Source of the DNA: a virus
DNA length: 36,593 nucleotides
Virus record (IMG/VR): IMGVR_UViG_3300042934_000223
Coordinates: 1 to 36,593 of that record
Reading direction: 5' to 3' (one strand)
The notes beneath the pieces are model-generated. The model saw nothing but the letters and a program-made list of their open reading frames with translations. It was not told the origin of the DNA and did not search any database. Made by a program: the position numbers and the translations under genes. Numbering within the stretch: position 1 is the stretch's first letter; each line of letters begins with the position of its first letter. Shown here piece after piece: positions 17,418-25,379 of this stretch.

Positions 17418-17525
17418 GTTAATTCACCTACCCTTCTAAGTATATTTTCGGAGGGGACCGCAAAACACGATCATTTTGGATCCCGGGACACGCTCGCGGG
17501 CTATGTTGGTGGGCGGTACAACCCT

Positions 17526-17566
17526 CCTTATATTTATATAATATAAGAGTGCGGAAGCAATTGCAC
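17526..17566 (-). promoter_or_regulatory. Candidate promoter of the late (terminase) operon
   Basis: Minus strand reads GTGCA, 16 nt, then TATATTATATAAATA and an AAGGAGG. The same arrangement with identical spacing is found before the HNH-HTH gene at 24927. The resulting leader to the terminase start is about 110 nt and contains an AGGAGG with no gene close behind it. Confidence 0.6.
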
Positions 17567-17762: not shown

Positions 17763-17792
17763 GTATAAATTTTAGCATTTAGGGTAATAATA
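17763..17792 (+). promoter_or_regulatory. Candidate forespore-type promoter of the SASP gene
   Basis: GTATA (17763-17767), 15 nt, then GGTAATAATA (17783-17792). The second element fits the remembered sigma-F type -10 pattern GGNRANAMTW exactly and the first fits GYWTA; spacing is one base shorter than usual. An alternative sigma-A reading is the extended -10 TGGTATAAAT at 17761-17770. Confidence 0.35.
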
Positions 17793-17834
17793 ATAAAGTA
17801 AGACAAATCAAATTCAAAGGAGTTGTTAGGCTAC

Positions 17835-18233
17835 ATGCCGAGACGTGGAGGTAGACATTACGTACTGGTTAAGGGTGCTGAACGTGCTATGGAGGCTTTC
17901 AAGATTGAAATTGCGAAAGACCTGGGGCTATTTCACAAAATTACCGAGGATGGGTCGTATAAAGGCCTCACGACGCTAGAAGTAGGTCAAATCGGTGGTG
18001 AAATGGTACGGAGAATGCAAGCTGCTGGCGAATTTGCAATTAAAGCACGCTTCGATATGGGAGAGCAACGGCTAATGCCCCCAGAAGTAATGCCAGACCC
18101 AAGAGCCGTACGCGAAGTTACGAATAATGGGAATCCGACATTGCATGTAACCGGAGACGTACACGATGCACCTGCTAGCGGACAACAATTTGCCAAGAAA
18201 GACGGCAAGCAAGACCAGCCACCAATTCACTGA
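17835..18233 (+). CDS. Small acid-soluble spore protein, alpha/beta type, with C-terminal extension
   Basis: A 132-residue protein starting MPRRGGRHYVLVKG. Residues 10-70 follow the alpha/beta SASP pattern: VKGAERAMEAFKIEIAKDLG corresponds to the family helix 1 with the EIA site cut by the germination protease, and GQIGGEMVRRMQAAGEFAI to the conserved GGEITKRLVxxAEQ helix 2. Host SASPs are about 60-75 residues. Here a 60-residue tail rich in Pro, Gly and Gln is added. SASPs coat spore DNA and protect it. AAAGGAG lies 12 nt before the ATG; an in-frame TTG at 17823 is too close to it. The gene stands alone between promoter and terminator. Confidence 0.88.
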   Translation: MPRRGGRHYVLVKGAERAMEAFKIEIAKDLGLFHKITEDGSYKGLTTLEVGQIGGEMVRRMQAAGEFAIKARFDMGEQRLMPPEVMPDPRAVREVTNNGNPTLHVTGDVHDAPASGQQFAKKDGKQDQPPIH

Positions 18234-18300
18234 GCGTACCAGGGTGGTGTGCTTGGCTGCGAAGCTAGGCTGCCGCGACGATTCTGGCAAGTTGCCTATA
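18234..18300 (+). repeat. Post-stop GTACCAGG element, copy A
   Basis: Begins at the SASP stop codon: GCGTACCAGGGTGG, then TGGCTGCGAAGC. Related elements follow the stops at 27520 and 29897. CCAG can pair with CTGG further on, enclosing a GC-rich inner stem. Function unknown. Confidence 0.4.
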
Positions 18301-18401
18301 AGAACGGTGTGCGGACTCCGATCTGCTGTAGGCATGTTGCCTTTAGGTAGGGAACTCTCTTACCGCGATGCTTAACTGATGTTGCTTCAAATTATTTGAC
18401 T

Positions 18402-18451
18402 GACTGCAGGGTTCTAGGTACCTAGGTATAGAACTCTGCAGTCTTTATTTT
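18402..18451 (+). terminator. Strong terminator of the SASP gene
   Basis: GACTGCAGGGTTCTA pairs with TAGAACTCTGCAGTC (15 bp including one G-U) and is followed by TTTATTTT. The loop contains TAGGTACCTA, itself palindromic. It ends the SASP transcript. Confidence 0.88.
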
Positions 18452-18576
18452 GGCAGTTTCCGGGATAATAGGTTTAGCAAGTACATGTGTTTTGTGTTGT
18501 AGATCTGGCAATGGCCCTACGGCCCCGGTGTTTAGCGTGGTACCCGGCCTCTGCTTTATTCCGGGATACGATTAAT

Positions 18577-24926: not shown

Positions 24927-25379
24927 ATGCGTTATGTTGATCTGACAAAGGATGGCTTCAAGGATGTGGTTTTATGGGAGAATGGCTTGATAGAATTGCC
25001 TAACGGCCGCAAGATTGAAAAACCGTATGCTACAGGACAGGTATCGTTGCCATTTGGCCATCGTTATGGAAGTAGGAATGTGAATCTGGCTAAGCTTGTG
25101 GCGGATAACTTCTTAGATCCTGTAGAAGGCGCTACTAAAGTAGACTTTATCGATGGTGATCGAATGAATTGTGCCGCTAGTAATCTTCAATATGTGGCAA
25201 GACGCCCAAGACGTACTAAAGAGCAGATGCGTGCACTACGTCCGGAAATAATCATGTTGCATACTGCTGGGAAATCTTCGTATGACATCGTGCAGGAATT
25301 AGATGTAAACCTCAATCACGTGTTGGACGTAGTCCACGACTTCGAAATCTCCCTCCTTCAGGACCAGATGCTAGACTAG
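24927..25379 (+). CDS. Degenerate HNH protein fused to a helix-turn-helix
   Basis: A 150-residue protein starting MRYVDLTKDGFKDVV, with AAAGGAGG upstream. Residues 15-90 follow the phage HNH pattern (GLIELPNGRKI, NLAKLVADNFLDP, KVDFIDGDRMN, ASNLQYV). The catalytic His of the usual NHIDGNKLN is Phe here, and the His of the HRLVA helix is Lys, so nuclease activity is unlikely. Residues 95-140 (MRALRPEIIMLHTAGKSSYD then LNHVLDVV) are an HTH of the family found at 20329 and 22619. It may be a homing endonuclease turned into a regulator. It stands alone; an 8+5 bp hairpin follows at 25426. Confidence 0.75.
   Translation: MRYVDLTKDGFKDVVLWENGLIELPNGRKIEKPYATGQVSLPFGHRYGSRNVNLAKLVADNFLDPVEGATKVDFIDGDRMNCAASNLQYVARRPRRTKEQMRALRPEIIMLHTAGKSSYDIVQELDVNLNHVLDVVHDFEISLLQDQMLD

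Follow-up and report, generated by a model that had tools for sequence, protein, structure and literature searches.

A phage-borne alpha/beta-type SASP with a conserved C-terminal extension and a forespore-type promoter

Genomes of virulent phages have long been known to be carried in spores, and the locus described here bears on whether phages actively invest in that state. In the 36.6-kb window (by which we mean the whole 36,593-nt stretch of viral DNA analyzed, IMG/VR record IMGVR_UViG_3300042934_000223) a gene beside the terminase operon had been read, in a preliminary description, as coding for an alpha/beta-type SASP with an added C-terminal tail. What would a phage do with such a protein, and when would it be made? 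Phage SASPs as such, and the idea that they protect phage DNA, are already published: SPbeta sspC is SigG-dependent (PMC8270828), and the SASP of CampHawk "presumably ... protects phage DNA" (PMC3868849). A tail-bearing subfamily from probably virulent phages, together with its conserved forespore-type promoter, we did not find described in the literature.

The gene proved to be real and its limits correct, as judged from the 132-aa ORF, the match to PF00269 and the selection acting on it. The ORF as listed starts at TTG 17823; ATG 17835 opens the MPRRG motif, which is invariant in all eight sequences of the subfamily defined below. Comparison with the closest relative, contig L008, revealed 52 nucleotide and 4 amino-acid differences (dN 0.016, dS 0.91, dN/dS about 0.02), with no amino-acid change within residues 1-65; the gene is under strong purifying selection, i.e. 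it is selected as a protein. Its placement next to the terminase operon was also borne out: it is a stand-alone gene, divergent from opposite-strand neighbours that encode TerS, TerL, portal, protease, capsid and tail proteins. The features of the locus are collected in Table 1.

Table 1. Features of the SASP locus, in window coordinates.
Feature	Position	Strand	Basis
-35 element GTATA, sigma-F type, also fits sigma-G	17763..17767	+	consensus scan; counterpart at the aligned place in 6 of 7 lineages
-10 element GGTAATAATA, sigma-F consensus GGNNANAHTR	17783..17792	+	consensus scan, lineage comparison
Ribosome-binding site AAAGGAG	17816..17822	+	sequence; 12 nt 5' of ATG 17835
Alpha/beta-type SASP gene, 132 aa	17835..18233	+	ORF, Pfam, PHROGs, alignment, dN/dS
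SASP domain (PF00269), residues 10-61; GPR-type site E25-I26, glycine G54, basic contact R59	17862..18017	+	profile match, alignment
Conserved C-terminal block, residues 66-100 (..R....EQRLMP.EV.P....VR..TNNGN)	18030..18134	+	alignment; no counterpart found in cellular SASPs
Variable, probably disordered C-terminal end	18135..18230	+	alignment; pLDDT below 50
Probable intrinsic terminator: long hairpin, then TTTATTTT	18402..18451	+	fold

The profile search agreed with the proposed family, PF00269 being the sole Pfam family of the protein (E=1.2e-13, 51.2 bits against a curated cut-off of 22 bits), and both SASP signature-helix motifs were found, at residues 14-27 and 51-62. In PHROGs the protein matches phrog_10367 (E=1.1e-7), a group to which SPbeta, SPO1, phage G and a Ruminococcus phage also contribute their SASPs; this group is labelled "unknown function" in PHROGs v4, and the members tested here are alpha/beta SASPs. 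The conserved Gly and Lys/Arg contacts to which the preliminary description had drawn attention are kept in eight of eight sequences. R59 aligns with K57 of SspC, which we take to be a basic DNA-contact residue, and is R throughout. G54, likewise invariant, aligns with SspC G52, a glycine whose replacement by alanine (G52A) cripples the DNA binding of SspC, as cited in PMC11392383.

The spore-protease (GPR) motif, ..E-I-A-x-[ED]-[FL]-G.., is present as KIEIAKDLG, with E25, A27, D29, L30 and G31 invariant in all eight sequences and the residue after the Glu being I or V; the putative E25-I26 cleavage site is kept in the phage SASP. An AlphaFold model places helices at residues 15-29 and 47-74 (pLDDT 74-90; overall mean 65), and a Foldseek search of this model against the PDB gave zero matches. 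The subfamily, at 102-133 aa, lies outside the usual alpha/beta SASP size of about 60-80 aa, which is typical of the family but not a requirement for membership, and it does so because of the C-terminal extension.

The preliminary description had spoken of a 60-residue tail unlike host SASPs. The extension is real, but it actually has two parts: residues 66-100 form a block of some 35 positions that is conserved, and the last 30 or so residues are variable and probably disordered. The protein of contig L013 stops shortly after the block, without the variable end. The dissimilarity to host proteins held up, since the block occurs in no cellular SASP among the 398 Bacillota genomes profiled. The tail is mostly of low confidence in the AlphaFold model, and its sequence had zero matches in Pfam and the PDB; its conservation suggests that it contacts a protein or DNA. 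The two parts of the protein have different charge, with a pI of 9.6 for residues 1-65 and 5.8 for the tail. An acidic, conserved extension is unusual, and SASPs affect forespore transcription (PMC11392383), so that the tail could conceivably have turned the DNA-binding hairpin into a modulator of forespore transcription or a phage-silencing factor; we regard this as very unlikely, as those signature residues for DNA coating that were checked are conserved and no regulatory domain was found with Pfam. Two other leads on the tail were dropped: a weak phmmer match to ribosome hibernation factors (E about 0.5) was dismissed as chance, and three host SASPs that matched into the extension columns, which would have pointed to a cellular origin, have ends of unrelated low-complexity sequence.

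The subfamily comprises eight distinct sequences in 13 records, all of them phage, and every sequence has the MPRRG N-terminus, the SASP core and the conserved 66-100 block. Full-length tailed relatives, 57% identical to the window protein, are present in BSP7 and BSTP5, 8, 10 and 12, which grow on B. subtilis and are the carriers with a named host; four of these five records already carry a SASP annotation. The BSP7 gene (L002, 20001-20366) has its annotated start at an internal ATG (20055), while the conserved MPRRGGRH start corresponds to TTG 20001, with a good ribosome-binding site 5' of it. Seven IMG/VR contigs carry the other tailed relatives, L008 being 97% identical and two of the seven sharing one and the same identity. 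Scanning IMG/VR more widely, with the full alignment as query, yielded no further member, which indicates that the subfamily is rare. When the genomes of about 85,000 species of bacteria and archaea were scanned by pattern, no member was confirmed, and a plasmid search gave no match. Using the family profile on the 398 Bacillota genomes, cellular SASPs reached at most 58 bits, compared with 180-220 bits for the subfamily. This includes the cellular SASPs of the LTTREVGQIGGQMVKRM type, which share the second-helix signature TT.EVGQIGG.MV.RM with the phage proteins but are without the conserved extension.

A tree built from 64 SASP domains placed the eight sequences together in a single clade (100/99), borne on a long branch and separate from the SPbeta, SPO1, gut-phage and host SASPs, although with 68 usable columns the deep branching is not resolvable. 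SPbeta SspC (PDB 2z3x) resembles the window protein in its SASP signature and in being phage-borne, encoded by a lone gene opposite to its neighbours and preceded by a forespore promoter, which in sspC is a perfect sigma-G match. It differs in being 72 aa long, without an extension, and belonging to a temperate phage; the two are 29% identical over 65 residues, and SspC clusters with Bacillus host SASPs in the tree, whereas the window protein does not. SPO1 gp34.25 and the CampHawk SASP are, like the window protein, SASPs of virulent phages encoded by lone genes opposite to their neighbours; however, they fall in a separate clade, have no conserved extension block, and no promoter of sigma-F or sigma-G type was found for them.

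When would the gene be transcribed? The sigma-F consensus is GYATA-15/16-GGNNANAHTR and that of sigma-G is GHATR-17/18-CATNHTA; the check on the former is the spoIIR and gpr calibration given below. The element GTATA-N15-GGTAATAATA, which ends 42 bases 5' of the SASP ATG, is the only perfect GYATA-N15/16-GGNNANAHTR in the window on both strands, and AATAATA at 17786-17792 fits sigma-G with one mismatch at a spacing of 18. Moreover, nine sigma consensuses were set against each other upstream of the gene in seven lineages, the best matches being compared with shuffles; the lineages are related, and p-values are therefore not fully independent. Sigma-F (z=6.6) and sigma-G (z=5.3) stood out, with the two sites sharing an aligned place 21-74 nt 5' of the start codon. 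The other candidates were set aside, with no strong enrichment: sigma-A gave z=1.2, sigma-B 0.35, sigma-D 0.5 and sigma-H 0.8, sigma-W was also below 1.3, and sigma-E (2.4) and sigma-K (2.1) were marginal. The -35 and -10 elements are better conserved than their flanks in six lineages; contig L014 has a sigma-G-like site (TTATA, N17, CATACTA) without a sigma-F site. The joint match of the SASP gene to the two forespore consensuses is not equalled by any other ORF in any record.

Calibration on known genes gave a consistent picture. SPbeta sspC returned its perfect sigma-G match, and a consensus-seeded matrix refitted on 80 host SASP genes stayed on sigma-G; this host-trained matrix scores the phage promoters modestly because the phage -10 region is closer to sigma-F. 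The sigma-F targets spoIIR and gpr share the -35, N15, -10 layout of the phage element, e.g. GAATG-N15-GGTAAAAATA, with matches exceeding those in shuffles (24% vs 0.7% and 10% vs 1.3%). These results suggest that the phage gene has a conserved forespore-type promoter, from which it would be transcribed in the forespore. Such a promoter lends strong, although indirect, support to the protection of phage DNA in spores, which we infer and which had been proposed beforehand. By the same test no forespore-type promoter was found for the SASP genes of SPO1-type phages (SPO1, L016, 1977-2219) or phage G (L017, 1462-1707), thus not every phage SASP fits this pattern, and the timing of those proteins may differ.

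The genomic contexts of the gene bear on an alternative in which a SASP made in vegetative cells would coat host or phage DNA during the lytic cycle, stopping host transcription or aiding packaging. The SASP gene and the terminase operon are divergently oriented in the window, L008, L010/L011, L012 and BSP7, a proximity to terminase genes that speaks for this alternative; the terminase region of BSP7 is unrelated to that of the window (tblastn). Furthermore, SASP is antibacterial when made in growing bacteria, which is the basis of SASP-delivering phages (PMC8538823). Nevertheless, no sigma-A-type promoter was found 5' of the gene in the seven-lineage comparison, the gene lies on the strand opposite to the late operon and has its own terminator in relatives, and other members adjoin ribonucleotide reductase genes rather than terminases. 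A forespore-type promoter and a GPR-type site would also serve no purpose in such a scheme, which we therefore consider unlikely.

By terminase and portal, the window, L008, L010/L011 and L012 belong to one phage group, while in L009, L013 and L014 the SASP gene adjoins ribonucleotide reductase or thymidylate synthase genes; judging by these differing contexts, the gene appears to travel from phage to phage together with its promoter. Some coding regions of these contigs have unusual insertions: the large terminase ORF of L010 (3173-5587, 804 aa) has an in-frame insertion of ~330 aa relative to that of the window that looks like an intein, and the ribonucleotide reductase ORF of L013 (4560-7667, 1035 aa) is about 340 aa longer than that of L009, with HNH-endonuclease matches inside, a probable intein. 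In the window itself, a lone HNH endonuclease ORF on the (+) strand (24927-25379) lies among minus-strand genes.

Eight tail-SASP records, the complete BSP7 and BSTP12 among them, were tested for integrase and resolvase, and neither was detected, while the SPbeta control was positive for both; most IMG/VR records being fragments, this absence is firm for BSP7 and BSTP12. Seven of these eight records have DNA polymerase A, the exception being the window, and no ParB was found in the carriers. We read the carriers as probably virulent phages. This weighs against a gene serving chiefly the host spore, as in the lysogenic conversion proposed for SPbeta sspC, which encodes a SASP driven by SigG and is classed under host conversion (PMC8270828): with neither integrase or resolvase in the tested records nor cellular copies of the gene, the carriers look virulent and without a lasting stake in the host, and we find such a benefit quite unlikely.

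The reading that we favour, and think probable, is that of a phage-specific alpha/beta SASP acting at the spore stage: made in the forespore from a trapped phage genome, it would coat DNA and be digested by GPR at germination. An infected spore-former would enter sporulation with the phage genome caught in the forespore, a state described as the virospore (PMC9429907). There, host RNA polymerase with sigma-F, and probably also sigma-G, would transcribe the SASP gene from its own promoter, and the SASP domain, a helix-turn-helix hairpin, would coat DNA, the phage genome included, and so protect it through dormancy. At germination host GPR would cut at E25-I26, freeing the DNA for the lytic cycle. 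We infer action of this kind, inside spores and on a trapped phage genome, from three observations taken together: the promoter is of forespore type, the residues for DNA contact and for GPR are retained, and the carriers look virulent.

A more elaborate proposal, which we hold only tentatively and find rather doubtful, is that of a mobile spore-survival cassette of virulent phages, in which a forespore-only switch using host sigma-F/G would be combined with a tail directing the SASP preferentially to phage DNA, e.g. via a phage or host partner, keeping a trapped genome alive as a "virospore" without lysogeny.

The SASP and the forespore-type switch suggest a virus with a dedicated gene for surviving in a dormant host, and for the question of active phage investment in the spore-carried state the subfamily provides a specific, deletable candidate gene. 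Growth of the BSP7/BSTP relatives on B. subtilis makes the question directly testable.

The region 3' of the gene has features of its own. Besides the probable terminator of the window, terminators directly follow the SASP gene in the sequences of L009, L010, L012, L013 and L014. Rfam and tRNA searches of the window, noncoding interval 18234-18470 included, gave no match; this interval folds unusually well (z=-3.9) and is a candidate origin, packaging site or small RNA. A 48-bp element at 18231-18278 recurs in L010/L011, and a similar one (17498-17545) recurs in L012.
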